The notes under the pieces are model-generated. The model had not been told where the DNA came from. It worked only from the letters and a program-made list of their open reading frames with translations, and ran no database searches. The position numbers and the translations under genes are program-made. Of a DNA stretch of 24,085 nt, positions 2,772-24,085 are shown piece by piece (the stretch's first letter is position 1; each line of letters opens with the position of its first letter). Where the stretch lies: the IMG/VR virus record IMGVR_UViG_3300042549_004264, positions 1 through 24,085 of that record. One strand, 5' to 3'. The DNA comes from a virus.

Positions 2772-3752
2772 TCAGTAGTGGTTATGGATGGGATACCCCG
2801 CATTGGAGTTAAAGTCGATGGAAATTTTAGGAATTGCAGCACCCCTGGCAGCGGCGACCTCGTCGTCGAGCAGCTTCCGGCACACGTTCCAATGATACTC
2901 GGCGCGTTCGATGTCCGCGTTGTCTTCCGCCATCTTGCCCAGCAGGGCGTGTTTCCATGCGGAGAGGTTCCCGAGATACACAACGTCGGTGGATGCGGCC
3001 ACCGTCGTCCATGCCAGCTTCACCGCCACATGGACATACGTGGAGTCCCTTGCCCCGCCTACGCGGAAGCGGCGGTAACGCACGACATCGTAGCCACGGA
3101 GAACCTCCGCCGCGACGGACTCGACGTCCGCATTGTCGAGGAGCAGCTTGATCTCGAACGGGAGATCGGAACCCACGATCTCGTCGATGAACACGACGGG
3201 CGTAGGGAAAGCGATGGTCAGGGTCGTCGTGCCAGCGATGACACCCGTGACGGGAACACCGTCAGCCGTGCGGCCTTTCACGGTGATGTCGCCGTCGGCC
3301 ATCGTAACGTCCGAAACCGCGACGTTCGCGGTCGTGAAAAGGTAAAGCGTGCTGATCGCCGTGACATCCTCGGTATCGACATCCTGCAAATCCGCGATGT
3401 CCCGCTTGAGAGTGTGGTAGTTCATGTCCACCAGACCGTAGCGATCCGGCAGGAACGCCACATTCCCGAGCATGGCCTTGTCGTGGAACGAGGAATACAC
3501 ACGCTGGGGGAGATCGTTCACCACCGCTCCGAGGACGGCATCCGTGTTCCGGTCGAGGGAGATGTAGCCGTCCGCGCCCTCATACACCTGCTCGGTGAGA
3601 AGGTCTTTCCAGTAGCCCATCGCATAGACGCGGGGGCCGACTTCGTTCAGCGCATTGGCAAAGCTCGCACCCGGCTCCAGATAATTTCCGGCATTACTCG
3701 TCCCCGCTGTGGCGAGCAACGTCTGAAGCTGTCCGTAAGTGATGGCGGGCAT
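2772..3752 (-). CDS. Head-tail connector / neck-type structural protein
   Basis: 326 residues. The N-terminus (MPAITYGQLQTLLATAGTS) leads to FANALNEVGPRVYAMGYWKD, then a predicted beta-rich middle (residues ~130-190, with repeated short strands and GVIAGTTTLTIAF). It ends with helices: LGNLSAWKHALLGKMAEDN and EYHWNVCRKLLDDEVAAARG. Helix - beta domain - helix with 'GNLSAWKHALLGKMAEDNAD' resembles podovirus-type adaptor/tail-tubular-A proteins that join portal to tail. That is a structural analogy, not a proven family hit. It is followed at once by the small 95-aa virion gene. The start at 3752 has no Shine-Dalgarno; the preceding mRNA reads TCCTCCCCC. Confidence 0.55.
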   Translation of the reverse strand: MPAITYGQLQTLLATAGTSNAGNYLEPGASFANALNEVGPRVYAMGYWKDLLTEQVYEGADGYISLDRNTDAVLGAVVNDLPQRVYSSFHDKAMLGNVAFLPDRYGLVDMNYHTLKRDIADLQDVDTEDVTAISTLYLFTTANVAVSDVTMADGDITVKGRTADGVPVTGVIAGTTTLTIAFPTPVVFIDEIVGSDLPFEIKLLLDNADVESVAAEVLRGYDVVRYRRFRVGGARDSTYVHVAVKLAWTTVAASTDVVYLGNLSAWKHALLGKMAEDNADIERAEYHWNVCRKLLDDEVAAARGAAIPKISIDFNSNAGYPIHNHY

Positions 3753-3794: not shown

Positions 3795-4379
3795 TTAGCT
3801 GCAATGTCCGCATTGTTGTGATCCCGAGGATTCCGCCACGATTCGCCGCGATGTTTTATACCATCCACCCGGATTCGACTTCCGAAGATCCGCAAAAGCA
3901 CGGTCGATGACTCGCTCCCGATGCGCTTGGAAATAGCAATATGCCTCGATCATTCCGGCGCGGCTCCACAGCGTGCCGATCATTCCGGTTTCCTCGCCCG
4001 CGTTCCACCCCAGCCTGATCGCTTTCCACCCGTCGCGGGTGGATTCCCAAGTCCGTTTTATCTCCGTATCAAAGTCCAGCGACAGTTCCGCGTCGTCCTC
4101 GAATACAAGCAGATATTCACACTTGCTCACGATTGCGTTTTCGAGCGCGTCGATGTGATCGCAGGATGCTGCCCACCAATGCGGCCACGTTCGCATCTCA
4201 TCGTTCAGGGGCGCGAATCGTTTTTCATGCGACAGCCCTACGCGCAGTTCAGGGTTGAGGGATGAAATCCATCCGCTTTGCCCCCTGATGTGAGCCAGTG
4301 TCTTTGATGCCCGTTGCGGGTATCGCTCATTGCTCAGGATAAAAAGCCGAGTGTTTGCACTGGTCAAACAGTCTTCCAT
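3795..4379 (-). CDS. Glycosyltransferase family 25-like protein
   Basis: 194 residues from the ATG at 4377-4379; a GTG one codon earlier (4382) is also possible. Features typical of GT25/LPS beta-galactosyltransferase-type enzymes are visible: an N-terminal strand TRLFILSNERYPQRASKTLA (acceptor/donor-domain start), then GLSHEKRF and TWPHWWAASCDHIDALENAI, and the metal-binding LLVFEDDAEL with an E-D-D triad (about residues 90-99), followed by WKAIRLGWNAGEETGMIGTL. It would transfer a sugar from a nucleotide donor to a glycan or protein in the cytoplasm. It overlaps the upstream FkbM methyltransferase gene, so the two should act on the same product, either a phage surface glycan or the host envelope. 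Acceptor and donor cannot be read from the sequence. The C-terminal end (SGSQQCGHCS) is unusual. Confidence 0.75.
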   Translation of the reverse strand: MEDCLTSANTRLFILSNERYPQRASKTLAHIRGQSGWISSLNPELRVGLSHEKRFAPLNDEMRTWPHWWAASCDHIDALENAIVSKCEYLLVFEDDAELSLDFDTEIKRTWESTRDGWKAIRLGWNAGEETGMIGTLWSRAGMIEAYCYFQAHRERVIDRAFADLRKSNPGGWYKTSRRIVAESSGSQQCGHCS

Positions 4380-4999
4380 CACGCGGGCATCCTTTCATAG
4401 AGTGCGTTACCCCACGACACGCCGCCCCAAAAAGTCAGGACGCGCTTGAAGCCGAGTTCACGCAAGTAGGTGTCGAGGTCGCCGACCAACGCGCAATTTT
4501 CGTAAAGCTCCTCACAATTCACCTCGCACACAACATGCTCGATGCTGTGTGACAGCAAATCCCTTGCCCCCTTCAGCACCTCAAGCTCGTAGCCTTGAAC
4601 ATCGAGGACTAGCGTGTCAAAATCCGATTTGTTCTTGATGTCGTCATCCAGCCTCACGATCTCGCAAGTCTCCTTTGAGTCGAACGTTATGTCTGGGTAT
4701 TGGTCGAGGTGCTTTTTAGGTTTGAGGATGGACGAGGATTTCCCGCCGTTCGCGCTCTCCACGGACATCTCAACTTGACCCGCAAAGTTGCCTGCGGCCT
4801 TGTTCCGGCAATCGACAGTATCGCCCCACGCGTCTTTAAGCTGCGCGAAGTTACCTGCCAACGGCTCGTAAGCTATGACGTTCGGCGTGATGTGCGCCAC
4901 GTAAAGGCCTACCTCTTGCCCGTGGTGTGACCCGACATGGATGATGCCACGGCAAGATGGTTTTGTTTTGTCGAAAACGTTTAGGAGTATGGCAGACAT
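4379..4999 (-). CDS. FkbM-family SAM-dependent methyltransferase
   Basis: 206 residues. SAM-binding motif I is HVGSHHGQEVGLY (about residues 21-33), preceded by the strand GIIHVG; motif II is ITPNVIAYEPLAGNFAQL. The FkbM-typical motif FDTLVLDVQGYELEVLKGA lies near residues 128-146, followed by EHVVCEVNCEELY. This family O-methylates sugars or small molecules. Here the overlap with a GT25-like gene implies methylation of a transferred sugar. The gene sits 12 bp after the stop of a 298-aa virion gene and forms an insert between structural genes. The start has no Shine-Dalgarno. Family is confident; the substrate is unknown. Confidence 0.85.
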   Translation of the reverse strand: MSAILLNVFDKTKPSCRGIIHVGSHHGQEVGLYVAHITPNVIAYEPLAGNFAQLKDAWGDTVDCRNKAAGNFAGQVEMSVESANGGKSSSILKPKKHLDQYPDITFDSKETCEIVRLDDDIKNKSDFDTLVLDVQGYELEVLKGARDLLSHSIEHVVCEVNCEELYENCALVGDLDTYLRELGFKRVLTFWGGVSWGNALYERMPA

Positions 5000-13032: not shown

Positions 13033-13752
13033 TCAGAGTTCCTTGTGCATAACCTCTGCGTCGAGGGTTACGGTTTTTTTGGCGCGGGGTTTGCGGGGGT
13101 CAAATTCAAGGATGTTGACATCGACACCGGCACGCTGCTGGACAGCGACCTCTTTAACCTTACGGTTCATGTCGAGCGCCTCACGCGCCATATCGACGAC
13201 GATCTTGGCATCCTTCCAATCCTTCACCCTTGGAGGGTCGATGAAAATGTTGCGGAGCTGCTTGAGCGAGATGGCGGCGGACAGGGTGGCCGTGACCTCC
13301 TGGATCGACTCGGCGGTGTGCGACATTGTGTCGAGCATCTCAAGCTGCCTGTCAACGACGGAGAGAACCCCCGCGAACGCGGCCATCTCTTCCGGCGTGC
13401 GCGGGTCAGGGCGCGAGTCCATTGCGGAGAAACCCATCTCCACATACTCTTGCTGGAGTTCCGAGAGTTCCCGGTATTCGCAGAGCGTGGCATGGTCGGG
13501 GTCGTAGATCCCTTCTTTCTTCCGCTTTTCGATTCCGAATGTGGAAACCTTCCGCAGCGCGAGGTCGATCTCCTCCTGCGAAACTTTCACGTTGAGCCGG
13601 ATGCCGCCTTTCTGCAACCACTGTCCTATGGTGATAGCCGAAGTGTCTGTCAGGTCGGCGACCTGTTTGGGTTTGGCACCGTGGTTCGCCACGTCGTCAA
13701 GCACCCGCCGGACGAACTCCGGTGGGAAGGGTGCGAGGTTTCTTGCTGCCAT
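13033..13752 (-). CDS. Terminase small subunit-like DNA-binding protein
   Basis: 239 residues. Residues ~10-47 form a helix-turn-helix: FPPEFVRRVLDDVANHGAKP, then KQVADLTDTSAITIGQWLQK with the 'ITIGQWLQKGGI' recognition-helix pattern. Long helices follow (GVLSVVDRQLEMLDTMSHTA, then ALDMNRKVKEVAVQQRAGVD), which would oligomerise, and a basic C-terminal tail (DPRKPRAKKTVTL). This layout (N-terminal HTH, helical oligomerisation region, basic tail) is that of small terminases, which recognise the packaging site and deliver DNA to the large subunit. It stands divergent from the large terminase gene, 52 bp apart. A plain transcription regulator is the alternative, but position directly before portal favours terminase. 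Confidence 0.7.
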   Translation of the reverse strand: MAARNLAPFPPEFVRRVLDDVANHGAKPKQVADLTDTSAITIGQWLQKGGIRLNVKVSQEEIDLALRKVSTFGIEKRKKEGIYDPDHATLCEYRELSELQQEYVEMGFSAMDSRPDPRTPEEMAAFAGVLSVVDRQLEMLDTMSHTAESIQEVTATLSAAISLKQLRNIFIDPPRVKDWKDAKIVVDMAREALDMNRKVKEVAVQQRAGVDVNILEFDPRKPRAKKTVTLDAEVMHKEL

Positions 13753-13760
13753 GCAGACAG

Positions 13761-13788
13761 AGAATAGTCAGGGGTGTCAGACTATCAA
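13761..13788 (-). promoter_or_regulatory. Sigma70-like promoter for the packaging operon, overlapped by an inverted repeat
   Basis: On the minus strand, TTGATA (13783-13788), 16-bp spacer, TATTCT (13761-13766). The -10 box ends 8 bp before the small-terminase ATG, so the transcript would start about 2 nt upstream of the codon. Arms ATAGTC / GACTAT (13764-13769 and 13780-13785) form an inverted repeat touching both boxes, a plausible operator. Predicted from sequence only. Confidence 0.5.
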
Positions 13789-13804
13789 GACAAAATGTGG
13801 AAAA

Positions 13805-15688
13805 ATGTTGCAAGTGCGGGAAAGTCGCATTAAGTTTATCTGCGTGCGAACCAATATCGTCCCAGACTACGAACCGAAAGCTCTCGATGGCGGAGGCTTT
13901 AAGATCTGCGGCGCGGATCTTCCGCCCTGCTCCAGATTGGACGCGCAACTCTGGGGTTTCCGCCACACCGAGAACTGGAAACAGAAGGAATACCTGTTCT
14001 GGCGGATCGCCGACCACTGGTGGAACTCCAACGGAAAGGAGAAGATGGCGCGGCACCACTGGTCTGAAATGATTATCCGAGAGTGCTGTCAGAACCGTTA
14101 CGTCGCAGTGGGTGGAGCCGCGAGCGGGGGCAAATCGTGGGTTCTTGCCGGATGGGCATTGGTGTGGTGGATGTGCGCCCCGAGCACCACGAAGATTCTG
14201 CTCACATCAACCCACCTTTCCGGTGCGCGTGACCGGATCTGGGGTGCGATACTTCAGCTTATCGACGACATCCCCGAACCGCCGTGCCGCATTGTGGACT
14301 CTATCGGTCTGATAGCCTACATGTGTCCCAAAACCGGGAAGTCCTACTCCACGTTCGGTTTGAAGCTGGTGTCCGCCGACAAGAAGCAAGGTAAGCGCAA
14401 GATCGACAAGATGATCGGCGGCAAAGCCCCCAGGGTCTTGCTTGTGGCCGACGAGCTGGGGGGTATTTCCGAGTCCGTGCAAGAGGCTTTCTCTTCCAAC
14501 CTTGCCACGAACCCCGAGACGCAGATGGTCGGCCTGTCGAACCCGGCGAGCCGCTTCGACCCGTTCGGGGTGTTCTGCACGCCGAAAGGTGGTTGGGAAG
14601 CGGTTGACGTGATAAACGATATGGGGTGGGACATGCAGATCGGCGGACGGTATATCCGGCTGGATGCCTACGACTCCCCGAACTTTCACCTTCAGGAAGG
14701 TGAGGGTGAGGGTTACAGCTACCTCCCTTCGCAGCGGACAATCGACGAAGCCCTTGATTCCCTCGGAGCCACGCCCGAGGAAGCCGCGAAGTCCGGTGGA
14801 TTCCTGCGGATGTTCCGTGCCGTGTTCAACGATTCGGATAACGGGGAAACCGTGTATTCCGTGGCGGAGATCACGAAGTCCGAAGCGATGACTAAGGTTA
14901 CGCTGACGGGCAGCACAACCCTCGCCGGACTCGACCCCTCGTTCTCGTCGGGCGGGGATGCCACCGTGCTGAAACTCGGGTCGCTCGGCTACGACGAACT
15001 CGGGCAGCACTCCATAGTGTTCGGCGATGCCGTGCGGATCTACGAGGACTCGATGGACAAGACCGAACCGCGCAACGTCCAGATCGCCCGCAAGGTCGTG
15101 GCCGAGTGCAAGAAGCGCGGCGTGAAACCCGAGAACCTTTCCGTGGACGCCACCGGTGCGGGCGGTCCATTCTGCGACATCCTCCAGATGGTGTGGGATT
15201 CCAACGAGTTCCTGCGCGTCCAGTTCGGAGGTGCCGCCTCTGACCGGAAGATCAAGAACGACTCGAAGACCACTTGTCGCGAACGCTACGAGAACCGTGC
15301 GTCCGAGCTGTTCTTCATCGGGAAGCAGTATCTCCTCGGTCGCCAGATGTTCGGCCTGTCCGGCGACATGGTGAAGCAGATGACCTCGCGCCTATTCTCC
15401 ACGAAGAAGGGTGTGAAGGGTCTGCGGATGCAGGTTGAGCCGAAGAAGGAATACAAGGCGCGGATGGGCGAGTCGCCCGACGAAACGGATGCTTCGTTCG
15501 TCCTGCTTGAAGGTGCGAGGTCACGGCATTTCTTCATGCCCGCCGATCCGATGGAGGCTCAGAAGAAAGCCGCTGCACGGGATGACGTGTTCGCCCCGGT
15601 GAGCCTGCGGAAACTGAACGGTCGCCCGAGCCGCACGTTCGCCGATCTCGACGACGCCGCGCTGGGGCATGAGGCTCACTTGGTGTGA
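13805..15688 (+). CDS. terL: Terminase large subunit (packaging ATPase/nuclease)
   Basis: 627 residues from ATG 13805, the first Met in the intergenic gap; the frame stays open upstream only through the oppositely oriented small-terminase gene. The ATPase half has Walker A GGAASGGKS (about 103-111), Walker B VLLVADE (about 211-217) and a coupling-type SNPAS motif near 245-249. The nuclease half shows GLDPSFSSGGDAT (Asp ~377), LSVDATGAGG (Asp ~448) and GESPDETDA (Asp ~559/562), the three acidic sites of an RNase H-like domain. It cleaves concatemers and drives DNA through the portal. It is the only rightward gene here, divergent from small terminase and overlapping the accessory gene on its right tail-to-tail by 13 bp. 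It has no Shine-Dalgarno. Confidence 0.92.
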   Translation: MLQVRESRIKFICVRTNIVPDYEPKALDGGGFKICGADLPPCSRLDAQLWGFRHTENWKQKEYLFWRIADHWWNSNGKEKMARHHWSEMIIRECCQNRYVAVGGAASGGKSWVLAGWALVWWMCAPSTTKILLTSTHLSGARDRIWGAILQLIDDIPEPPCRIVDSIGLIAYMCPKTGKSYSTFGLKLVSADKKQGKRKIDKMIGGKAPRVLLVADELGGISESVQEAFSSNLATNPETQMVGLSNPASRFDPFGVFCTPKGGWEAVDVINDMGWDMQIGGRYIRLDAYDSPNFHLQEGEGEGYSYLPSQRTIDEALDSLGATPEEAAKSGGFLRMFRAVFNDSDNGETVYSVAEITKSEAMTKVTLTGSTTLAGLDPSFSSGGDATVLKLGSLGYDELGQHSIVFGDAVRIYEDSMDKTEPRNVQIARKVVAECKKRGVKPENLSVDATGAGGPFCDILQMVWDSNEFLRVQFGGAASDRKIKNDSKTTCRERYENRASELFFIGKQYLLGRQMFGLSGDMVKQMTSRLFSTKKGVKGLRMQVEPKKEYKARMGESPDETDASFVLLEGARSRHFFMPADPMEAQKKAAARDDVFAPVSLRKLNGRPSRTFADLDDAALGHEAHLV

Positions 15689-19666: not shown

Positions 19667-22600
19667 CTATTTTTCATCGACGGGGTATCTTGCTGGGCGG
19701 GATGTGTAGATGTAGTTCAGGAACTTCTTCCCTTCGTCACCGTGTTTTTCGATGATGTCCTGCATCTGCTCTTTCGGGAACACGATGCGCTCCGTGATCC
19801 CGCCGTATAGGAGGTTGTTGATGTTTCGTTCGGATATTTTCGCCTTGGACATTGCTTCCCGAACAGGTGCGTCCTCACCAAAAAGGGTGGAGAAAGCCTT
19901 TGCCGTGTTCAGGATTCCTGCCGTGACCTTGTCTGTGGCTTCGGCGCGGTCGTCGTAGAGGCTCTTCATCTCATCAAACGAGATAGGGTTTGGTGAGAAT
20001 ACCTTGTAGGTGATGCTAGACAGCTCACTCTTCTGCTTGCGCCAGTTGCGGAACGCACGGAGCATGATGTCCTCATTGCTGATAGACATGATGCGGACAG
20101 GTGCGATGGTCGCCCACACCATGCCTTCCGGACGTTGCCAGAACTCCGCTCCTTCGGTGTCGCGGTTCATCGCTTCTAGGGTCTTGATTCCCTGCGACAG
20201 GATCTTCGGATTGTAGGAGCCTTCGACGATGTGGAACGCCGACTTCCACGCTTTCATCAGGTCGGTGTCGGATTCAAGGTATATCGGGAAACCGTTGTCG
20301 TCGCGGTTTCTGCGGGTGTCCATCACCTTTCCGGCGACGATGTTCTCTCCGATGAGATCCTCCGCGATGAACCTTCCCATGATCGCCGGGATCTCGCCGA
20401 GTTCGGACGCATCGCCTTTTGCGATTGCCCCGATTAGGGAATCCGCCGTCCGCGAGAACGGGTCTGTAACAAACGATATGGGGTTCGCGTAGGTCATGTT
20501 CAGGATGCGGAGAACCTTCTGCTCGTCGTCCTTGAAATAGTAGAGCGATGAGTTCCGCAGGTATATGGGTAGCGAGGCGCGGATCGCGTCATCCTCGTCG
20601 TCGGTGATACCCATGACAAGACGTTGGATGATGATCGGCAGGGCTGCCGTGCCGAGACCATACACCGCGATCATTGCCGCACGTTTACGGCGACCGTATT
20701 TCTGGAGAACCGGGTTGTCTGAATCCATCCATTCTCCGGACAGATTCCAGGTGTTCACGGTGTTGCGGATGTTCTCCGACTTGAACCCGAGGAACGGTGC
20801 CATGAGTGCGCCGAGGCCGGAGCCTGTGAACCCGCTCACGAAGGACGACCTTTCCGACTTGGACGGCATCACCATCTTCGTGAGGCGGGAAGCCTCCTGC
20901 ATGATCTCCTTATCGGTGCCGAAGTCCGCTTCCTTGAGTTTCGTCTTGAAGTCGTTGTAAACCATCACCGTGAAGATGACCTCGGAAACCTCCGAGTATT
21001 GCGAGAGTTTGCCGACAAACGCTTTGTATGCCGCCTTGCCTTTTTTCGCGGCCTTGCCGAGAGCCATGTCCGCTTTGCCGGAAGTGACCATGAGATCCTC
21101 GATCCCAGCGTTCGGGTTCGCGCCGACCTCGTCAAGAAGCTGCATGAGGTAGCCAACCGTCGCACCATCGAAGGCGATGCGTCCGGCGACAAGCTCCTGA
21201 AACTCCGGGGTGATCTCGCCGTTCGGTTTGAGCGACTGCCGGACGAACCCGGTAGCGGCTTTCCAGTTCGCGGCGTTGGTGAAGTCCACGCCCTGCGATG
21301 CCGCCATGATCGAACCGCCGAGGACGTTGCGTATGTAGGTGGCGGGGTTGCCAAGAACCGCGACTCCGAGCGACATGCCAGCCGCACCGATCATCACCTT
21401 GCTCACGTTGCCGAGGAGTTCCTGTGCCGCCGTCTCGTCGGCGTTGCGCCCGGTCTTGAACGATGCACGGAACCGCTTCGCGTCCTCCTTGGAGGCGTAG
21501 AGTCCCCCGAGCGGGCGGAACGCGGCGTTGCCTTCGTTCGGTGAGATGACCGGCTCGAACCCGTAGTATTTACCCGGCTGCGGAAGCATCATGTCCTTGA
21601 CGTTCACGCCCATGTTTTTCGACGTGATGAAGTGATCGGTGGCGATCCGGTCTGCGGATGCACCGATCTCTGGGAGCGCGTCGGCGAGGCTGCCGCCATC
21701 CGCGAAAAACTTGAACGCCTCTTCCAGACGTTGCGAGATTTCCTCCGCGTCGGCTTTCGTGTCGCGCATCCCGGCGTTGAACCGCGAGTCGAGCGCGGCA
21801 CGTAGGGTGACGAACATCCTGTCGCGAACGTCGGCCTTGAGGTCGTCGTTGCCGCCTTCGGCGAACACCTTGCGCATGGTGTCGCGACCCTTGGCGTAGG
21901 TGACACCTGAGGTTTTCTCGGCCTCGGTGATGAACCTGCCGGACTCGATGCCGGAGTCGCGGATGCTGGTGAGGAGCTTCTGGTTCACGATGAGGCGACC
22001 GAGAGACATCGCGGTGTAGGCGAGGTTGAACACGGGGTCGGTGTTCACCTGGAGAACGCGCTGCATCTCCTCGGGGAGATTGACCTTCTTCATATAGCGG
22101 GCGATCTCGTTGGACACCGAGCTTCCACCGAACGCATTGCCTGAGCTGTCGCTGTGGCCGAGGATGAAGTCCTCGAAGAGAGCTTCGGCACGTCCGACGG
22201 CGCGTCTTGCGGCTTCCTTACGGAGGGCTGCGATGGTGGCGTCGTAGTCGCCCGCCGTGAACGCATCGCGCATGAACTCGGGGTCGCGCTCCAGTTCGCG
22301 GAACACCTGATCCTCGGCGATGGGGATGAGGTATTGGATGAAGCCCTCCTTCGCGGCGATGAGTTCCGGCTCCTTCGGATGGAGGATGCGGTCTGCCATC
22401 TTGGGGTCTTGGTGGATCTGGTAGCTGCGGACGAGGTGGATGCCCATCGAGTTGTCCACGATGGCCTTGAACTCGGGGCGGTCTTCCGAGAGGCGGCTGA
22501 CCTCGCGCTGAAGGTCGTTGGTGAGCTTGCGGAGTTCGAGGACAGCCTCGAAGGTGTCCGGAGAGGTGATCGACAGTCGGTTGAGCGCGGTCTGCTGGTC

Positions 22601-24085
22601 GGCTTTCCGTCTCGCCGTTTCCTCTTTCGTCTCGCGGACGATCTCGCGGGTGCGGAGACGTTCGGCCTGCTCTTCGACGGTAGCCATCGCTTCCTCGTAA
22701 AACGCCTTCGCGTCCGTCGGGTTCGCGTTGTAAGCGCGGTTGAACGCGGCTTCGGCGGCGGCGTATGCCCGCTCACGCGATGCGTCGTCCTTCGCGGCTG
22801 CGAGCATCCGGTCGAGCGTCTCACGGTATTCGGGGAACATGCCACGTTGCTCACGGGCGATGTCGGCTTCCGAGTCCGCGATGAAGTTCTTGTAGGCTTC
22901 CTCGATGCGGGTCGCCGCTTCGGGCGTGATGATCGGGTCGGTGTTGCCGACGGCAACCTGCACGGTGGCGATGTCCGTCTCCTCGTTCTTGATCGCCTTC
23001 TGCATCCTGAAGCCCAGGTTGCGGACGGACACCTCGATGGCACGCATCGTCGCATCCCTGCGGATCTTCGCGTTCGACATCGACTCGGGAACCCCGGCGT
23101 GGGTGGACACGAACAGCCCTTCCGCCCATCTTCCGAACTTCGTCTTGCGTGCGGGCTTGTCCGCCGAGGCGAGCGTGGACGGGTCGTTGTCGTAGAGGGT
23201 GAGGAAGCCCGAGTTCGCGGAGGTGGCTTCGGTGAAGTTCCGCAGGGCTGGCATCATCGGTGGCTCCACGGCTACGGACGGGAGGGTGGAGGGGAGGAAG
23301 AGAACCTGACCCTGCTGTTGCACGGACTCCCGCATGGCGGGCGTGATGTCGATGCGCCAGATGGGTGCTGTGGACGCAGGCCGTGCGGTGTCCTCTGATG
23401 GTGTCAGGGTGACAAGACCCGACGCCCTTTCCGGGCTGACAACAATCTCGGACTTCTCCACCTTCGCGCCCCACTGCTTCACGTATTTCCCGAGCTCCTT
23501 GGGAAGCATGTTGTCGTAGAAGCCCTCGAATCCCTCCTTGCGCGGCATCGACACGCCGGAGCCTTCGGTTTGCATCCGCTTCCAGAGTTTCGCGCCGAGA
23601 GCCTCGGGGTTCTGCCCTTCGGTGAGGGACGGGCGGATCGCTTCGACGAACTCGGCTTCCGTTGTGACGGTCTCGGAGTTCTGCGGATTCAGGTTGCGGG
23701 AATCCGCCTCGCCTTCGAGGTCTATGCCTCCTGCATTGCCGCCGTGCTGCGACTTGGCGTTGATGAGGAAAGACCCGTCGGGCTGCTTCGCCCATTCGAT
23801 GCGCTCCGTCCCCCATCGGTCGATGTGGGGTTGAGATGTGCTGAAGCCTACCCATTCCTTCCCGCCCGCCACCGCATCCCGCAGGGCGCGTTTGAACATG
23901 GCGAGCGGCCATGTGGTGCGGAAGGGGGCGTCGGCGATTTCACCGGATGCCTTGGTCACAAATTGGCCTGCGCCATATTCCTTCAGGTAGTTGTCAATGA
24001 TGACCTGCTTTGCCTGATCCAGCTCTGCGTATGGCTTCCCAAACATTCGGTTTGCTGTGCCGTCGATGTCTTCCGTTGAGAATGT
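19667..24085 (-). CDS. Giant polyvalent/ejection-type phage protein (5' end outside window)
   Basis: About 1470 residues are visible and the frame is open to the window edge, so the Met at 24046 is probably internal. Numbering from that Met, residues ~40-80 (MFKRALRDAVAGGKEWVGFS) and ~175-200 (GFYDNMLPKELGKYVKQWGA) followed by WRIDITPAMRESVQQQGQ (~228-245) match modules found in large polyvalent phage proteins (enzymatic domains strung with LPD modules). A long helical region follows. Two hydrophobic stretches lie near residues 880-920 (MIGAAGMSLGVAVLGNPATY) and 1120-1145 (AAMIAVYGLGTAALPIIIQR), fit for membrane insertion during DNA ejection. The C-terminal part contains NPISFVTDPFSRTADSLIGA. 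Missing N-terminal domains probably hold the enzymatic activities. I infer a virion-carried, injected protein. Confidence 0.75.
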   Translation of the reverse strand, partial: TFSTEDIDGTANRMFGKPYAELDQAKQVIIDNYLKEYGAGQFVTKASGEIADAPFRTTWPLAMFKRALRDAVAGGKEWVGFSTSQPHIDRWGTERIEWAKQPDGSFLINAKSQHGGNAGGIDLEGEADSRNLNPQNSETVTTEAEFVEAIRPSLTEGQNPEALGAKLWKRMQTEGSGVSMPRKEGFEGFYDNMLPKELGKYVKQWGAKVEKSEIVVSPERASGLVTLTPSEDTARPASTAPIWRIDITPAMRESVQQQGQVLFLPSTLPSVAVEPPMMPALRNFTEATSANSGFLTLYDNDPSTLASADKPARKTKFGRWAEGLFVSTHAGVPESMSNAKIRRDATMRAIEVSVRNLGFRMQKAIKNEETDIATVQVAVGNTDPIITPEAATRIEEAYKNFIADSEADIAREQRGMFPEYRETLDRMLAAAKDDASRERAYAAAEAAFNRAYNANPTDAKAFYEEAMATVEEQAERLRTREIVRETKEETARRKADQQTALNRLSITSPDTFEAVLELRKLTNDLQREVSRLSEDRPEFKAIVDNSMGIHLVRSYQIHQDPKMADRILHPKEPELIAAKEGFIQYLIPIAEDQVFRELERDPEFMRDAFTAGDYDATIAALRKEAARRAVGRAEALFEDFILGHSDSSGNAFGGSSVSNEIARYMKKVNLPEEMQRVLQVNTDPVFNLAYTAMSLGRLIVNQKLLTSIRDSGIESGRFITEAEKTSGVTYAKGRDTMRKVFAEGGNDDLKADVRDRMFVTLRAALDSRFNAGMRDTKADAEEISQRLEEAFKFFADGGSLADALPEIGASADRIATDHFITSKNMGVNVKDMMLPQPGKYYGFEPVISPNEGNAAFRPLGGLYASKEDAKRFRASFKTGRNADETAAQELLGNVSKVMIGAAGMSLGVAVLGNPATYIRNVLGGSIMAASQGVDFTNAANWKAATGFVRQSLKPNGEITPEFQELVAGRIAFDGATVGYLMQLLDEVGANPNAGIEDLMVTSGKADMALGKAAKKGKAAYKAFVGKLSQYSEVSEVIFTVMVYNDFKTKLKEADFGTDKEIMQEASRLTKMVMPSKSERSSFVSGFTGSGLGALMAPFLGFKSENIRNTVNTWNLSGEWMDSDNPVLQKYGRRKRAAMIAVYGLGTAALPIIIQRLVMGITDDEDDAIRASLPIYLRNSSLYYFKDDEQKVLRILNMTYANPISFVTDPFSRTADSLIGAIAKGDASELGEIPAIMGRFIAEDLIGENIVAGKVMDTRRNRDDNGFPIYLESDTDLMKAWKSAFHIVEGSYNPKILSQGIKTLEAMNRDTEGAEFWQRPEGMVWATIAPVRIMSISNEDIMLRAFRNWRKQKSELSSITYKVFSPNPISFDEMKSLYDDRAEATDKVTAGILNTAKAFSTLFGEDAPVREAMSKAKISERNINNLLYGGITERIVFPKEQMQDIIEKHGDEGKKFLNYIYTSRPARYPVDEK

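Follow-up and report, generated by a model that had tools for sequence, protein, structure and literature searches.

A giant polyvalent-type phage protein in which a virion/ejection-type C-terminal domain probably carries a GNAT-fold payload

The window analysed here, the complete 24,085-bp viral record IMGVR_UViG_3300042549_004264 from IMG/VR, closes with a giant ORF that probably encodes an ejected polyvalent protein, in which a packaging/ejection domain resembling the C2 region of the N4 virion RNA polymerase (vRNAP) carries a GNAT-fold payload module (Table 1). By analogy with relatives, this late-gene product would be packaged inside the phage head and enter the host along with the DNA at ejection; the last ~870 residues would most likely mediate encapsidation and passage through the tail, and the N-terminal part would bear the payload modules, of which half of the GNAT-fold module is visible. 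The module would probably modify a host protein or tRNA, a target suggested, like catalysis itself, by relatives. The C2 link and the pairing of a GNAT module with a C2-like domain appear to be new; if true, they would make it possible to search uncultured phages by sequence for ejected effectors.

Table 1. Coordinates of the giant ORF, its parts and two further ORFs in the window
Feature	Residues	Coordinates	Strand	Basis or remark
Giant polyvalent-type ORF, 1472 aa visible		19667..24085	minus	5′ end cut at record edge
GNAT-fold polyvalent module, second half (α3 to β7)	1-266	23288..24085	minus	Identity, family profile A6, model of intact L006
VLFLPS	261-266	23288..23305	minus	Site where relatives carry the RFMPE-type inter-module motif
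Charged, probably helical linker	267-490	22616..23287	minus	No relatives above cut-off in family searches
Virion/ejection-type C-terminal domain	~491-1472	19670..22615	minus	Profile match 665-1462; remote N4 C2 match ~901-1110
First hydrophobic stretch	894-912	21350..21406	minus	Mean Kyte-Doolittle 1.63; overlaps N4 C2-aligned motif
Second hydrophobic stretch	1136-1154	20624..20680	minus	Mean Kyte-Doolittle 1.73
Large terminase ORF		13541-15688	plus	PHROG 2, E 4.5e-10
Methyltransferase-like ORF		4379-4999	minus	PHROG 8156, E 9e-23; among tail-side genes

An earlier note on this DNA had described a single open frame of more than 1470 residues, and the frame is indeed open from 24085, at the record edge, to a stop codon at 19667-19669. 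At this base composition, an open run of 1472 codons would arise by chance with a probability of ~8e-23, and GC at the three codon positions is 0.59/0.43/0.79, the pattern of a genuine gene; length and codon-position GC both indicate that the giant ORF is real. Because the viral record is 24,085 bp long, the data contain no sequence upstream of the giant ORF. Searches of viral and genome contigs with giant-ORF peptides returned no close full-length relatives, and the 398-aa and 350-aa neighbour proteins used as queries likewise returned none. Pfam, NCBIfam and PADLOC searches with the giant ORF protein yielded nothing useful, with no match to the defence families of PADLOC and NCBIfam.

The visible ORF begins in a variable insert that follows the P-loop-like motif of the N-terminal module and therefore includes the module's second half only; in the alignment, the β1-β4 half and the P-loop-like motif fall beyond the record edge. 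In its best segment, the sequence up to residue ~294 is 65-70% identical to that of five IMG/VR contigs (L002-L006); three of these contigs carry complete ORFs of ~2400-2500 aa. A wider profile places the module in 188 other viral loci, mostly within giant ORFs, which bears out the earlier assignment of the N-terminal sequence to a polyvalent phage protein type; 80 of these relatives were fetched, and their ORFs span 391-5645 aa, many of them cut by contig edges. ART-PolyVal or Kinase-PolyVal domains accompany the module in the scanned giants, a zincin-type HExxH occurs in most of the complete giants carrying it (34 of 38), and its invariant residues are conserved over 37 diverse sequences (family profile A6).

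A model of the intact module of L006 (mean pLDDT 67.7) has the GNAT order of strands and helices. When the Foldseek matches to this module were examined with VIA-align, Z reached 9.6 over ~122 residues at ~10% identity, and the 50 rows are GNAT enzymes or GNAT-like domains (the C-terminal domain of ICL2 from M. tuberculosis is one of the latter). Rows less than 1 Z apart count as ties, which precludes assignment to a GNAT subfamily. Foldseek's own best matches were mostly GNATs, with E no better than 0.038, and a PDB sequence search with the module family profile gave no credible match. The GNAT fold is one predicted for the intact relative, the giant ORF itself having the truncated half only. 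Relative L006 resembles GNAT acetyltransferases (AtaT/KacT/TacT toxins and N-terminal acetyltransferases) in fold and in strand and helix order, but has a long insert between β5 and α4 and a non-canonical P-loop: where the canonical acetyl-CoA loop reads Q/RxxGxG/A, relatives carry QSDRHQxGRKxGY, in the region cut off here. We therefore class the module as GNAT-fold only and not as an active GNAT; acetyltransferase activity may be expected by analogy. Two GNAT families have already been described in polyvalent proteins (Iyer et al. 2017, PMC5512222). The earlier note had placed the likely enzymatic activities in the missing 5′ part; the visible part already includes a recognisable enzyme-like fold, in the form of half of the GNAT-fold module.

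In giants with this module the RFMPE-type motif recurs, often where a module ends: 68 giant ORFs from the L002-L006 and L115-L193 loci contain 101 copies, where 2.4 would be expected. The motif belongs partly to the conserved module end (GQxRF). From its distribution, it is a possible processing or module-shuffling junction, and VLFLPS in the giant ORF may be cleaved. HExxH is about equally common in giants with fewer than two such motifs (14 of 16) and in those with more (20 of 22), so a protease-site role for the motif remains an idea.

Downstream of the linker, the C-terminal profile match is to the giants of vB_Pun_Y3, HTVC027P, 023Pt and phi18:3 (hhalign, 99.5%, E 2e-22). The domain, which in its shared extent covers residues ~600-1462, is mostly helical and common to giants of Poorviridae, pelagiphages and Cellulophaga phages; it is homologous in phi18:3 gp123, pelagiphage HTVC027P gp85 and the Poorviridae giants, but at only ~20% identity. 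The record of phi18:3 gp123 places that protein in the virion, its annotation being 'based on experimental MS/MS proteomics analysis', and homologues are annotated as structural. Judged by these sequence relationships, the C-terminal two thirds appear to be a virion/ejection-type domain and not an anti-host enzyme. The earlier proposal of an anti-host or anti-defence protein gives way for this part of the chain; the polyvalent type, giant size and likely injection that it also put forward are backed by homology.

AlphaFold modelled the C-terminal domain too poorly (pLDDT 46) for a claim about its fold. The best PDB matches of this model were mainly membrane transporters at E ≥ 0.1, and N4 vRNAP was absent among the PDB matches listed. 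Against BFVD, the model matched giant phage proteins, several of them named polyvalent, and Cellulophaga phi19:3 (best E 3e-15). PDB sequence searches with family profiles A1 and A2 gave no credible match, and no match of the domain to a Pfam LPD model was obtained. LPD38 (PF18857) had no match in 8 records, in a search whose control was also without any match, and no hits among members of family profiles A1 and A7.

The complete pelagiphage relatives, ~1270-1348 aa long, consist mostly of this domain (their last ~900 aa). Together with the structural annotations and the non-canonical P-loop, they would suit an internal virion protein with a structural role (T7 gp16-like), either as part of the ejection channel or in DNA protection, whose GNAT-fold part is inactive. 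We consider this unlikely, since the GNAT-fold module is conserved, down to its invariant residues, and travels with enzymatic polyvalent domains. The absence of this C-terminal domain from every ORF among the fetched module relatives (80 of 188) could also reflect an assembly chimera between an unrelated polyvalent module and a virion protein. That explanation is barely credible: composition is continuous along the gene, several slices of the C-terminal part deviate more than the module slice does, and polyvalent modules are fused to the same domain in Poorviridae, where one relative is a multi-enzyme polyvalent protein ending in it.

The C-terminal domain may also have a remote counterpart in N4, where vRNAP is encapsidated and then ejected with two further proteins, forming a transient DNA-ejectosome (PMC12633501); encapsidation of N4 vRNAP needs its C-terminal region (PMC5512222), and a 2025 preprint describes the C2 region as having no structural homologue. 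Profile comparison aligns the C-termini of Schitoviridae vRNAPs collinearly with the C-terminal domain family, N4 gp50 ~3204-3442 corresponding to ORF ~901-1110. When the family is the query, hhalign gives E 7.5e-4, and when N4 is the query, 3e-5; enlarging the family by 22 pelagiphage sequences gives 2.3e-3, and E stays at 5e-5 to 2e-3 when members are dropped singly, the giant ORF included. Reversed, shuffled and unrelated-giant decoys gave E of 0.066-0.94, against 3e-5 to 2e-3 for N4 C2, the hhalign probabilities of the N4 C2 match being only 12-73%. A strong hit of decoy d5 on the enlarged profile was discounted as an overlap of the same sequences. The signal is profile-to-profile only, a single N4 sequence having no significant match to the C-terminal domain profile. 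These comparisons are suggestive, not proof, of homology between the C2 region and the C-terminal domain; the shared domain is taken, by analogy, to serve encapsidation here as in N4. More tentatively, C2 of N4 vRNAP may be a branch of a widespread packaging/ejection domain, concerned with delivery and not transcription, whose payloads would be RNA polymerase in N4, ART and methyltransferase modules in Poorviridae, and the GNAT-fold module here; we put these two proposals forward jointly, as somewhat doubtful.

The C2-like C-terminus, and the annotation of a homologue (StenR_269 WQZ00968) as a putative virion-associated RNA polymerase, raise the question of whether the missing 5′ part is an N4-like RNA polymerase and the protein the vRNAP of a new phage group. 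The order of domains makes this quite improbable. The zincin subdomain C1 lies directly before C2 in N4 (PMC12633501), whereas here the GNAT-fold module and linker precede the C2-like region, and no HExxH motif occurs in the visible 1472 aa. The visible part has a suggestive profile match to the C2 region of N4 gp50, but neither zincin C1 nor RNA polymerase was seen in it, and Pfam finds no RNA polymerase domain in the giant of vB_Pun_Y3, which ends in this C-terminal domain too.

Two hydrophobic stretches had been reported for this protein; both are present, but neither is exceptional, shuffles of the same composition reaching a mean maximum of 1.69 on the Kyte-Doolittle scale. The second aligns with a milder hydrophobic segment in vB_Pun_Y3. 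The first lies in the part aligned with C2, which in N4 is included in a CTD that cryo-EM shows as a folded domain (PMC12633501). As the peaks are no higher than in shuffled sequence and the first falls in the C2-aligned part, membrane insertion is not indicated, and both stretches probably lie in a folded core. A membrane-spanning protein in which the two peaks are transmembrane helices, for example an inner-membrane part of the ejection channel, is on these grounds very improbable.

The gene lies beside packaging genes, as previously noted, with the large terminase ~4 kb away on the opposite strand. The giant ORF with its preferred reading, an ejected polyvalent protein, combines several domains in one large polypeptide (the GNAT-fold module and the C-terminal domain), shares its module with ART, kinase and zincin proteins, and is encoded among late virion genes, the terminase being identified by PHROG. 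In its size, its travelling module and its late-gene location it resembles the phage polyvalent proteins of Iyer et al. (2017, PMC5512222); it differs from them in that its C-terminal two thirds yielded no Pfam LPD match and its visible part has only a single payload module.

Immediately downstream of the giant ORF come three ORFs of 142, 398 and 350 aa. The portal-, terminase- and capsid-like proteins have no tblastn match in 50,697 phage records, which points to a divergent phage lineage; the portal- and capsid-like labels are given by size and order only. The large terminase is on the strand opposite to the terminase-small-, portal- and capsid-like ORFs. Downstream of the giant gene, gene order seemed to be shared with cto1L10, but sequence did not back this and the idea was set aside. 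Next to the methyltransferase-like ORF, the ORF at 3795-4382 is glycosyltransferase-like by eye.

An exact 1001-bp tandem duplication was observed in GenBank record OR779980.1 (L007:16974-18974; record ~33394-35394), where a giant polyvalent gene of the kind described here is broken by it into WPJ21802 and WPJ21803. The second piece has been reported as an ADP-ribosyltransferase auxiliary metabolic gene (AMG) of vB_PunP_Y3 (PMC11654794). At that place an undivided ORF of 2558-3079 aa occurs in seven IMG/VR relatives (L017-L023), so the split is probably an assembly artefact, a likelier explanation than an ADP-ribosyltransferase AMG in vB_PunP_Y3.
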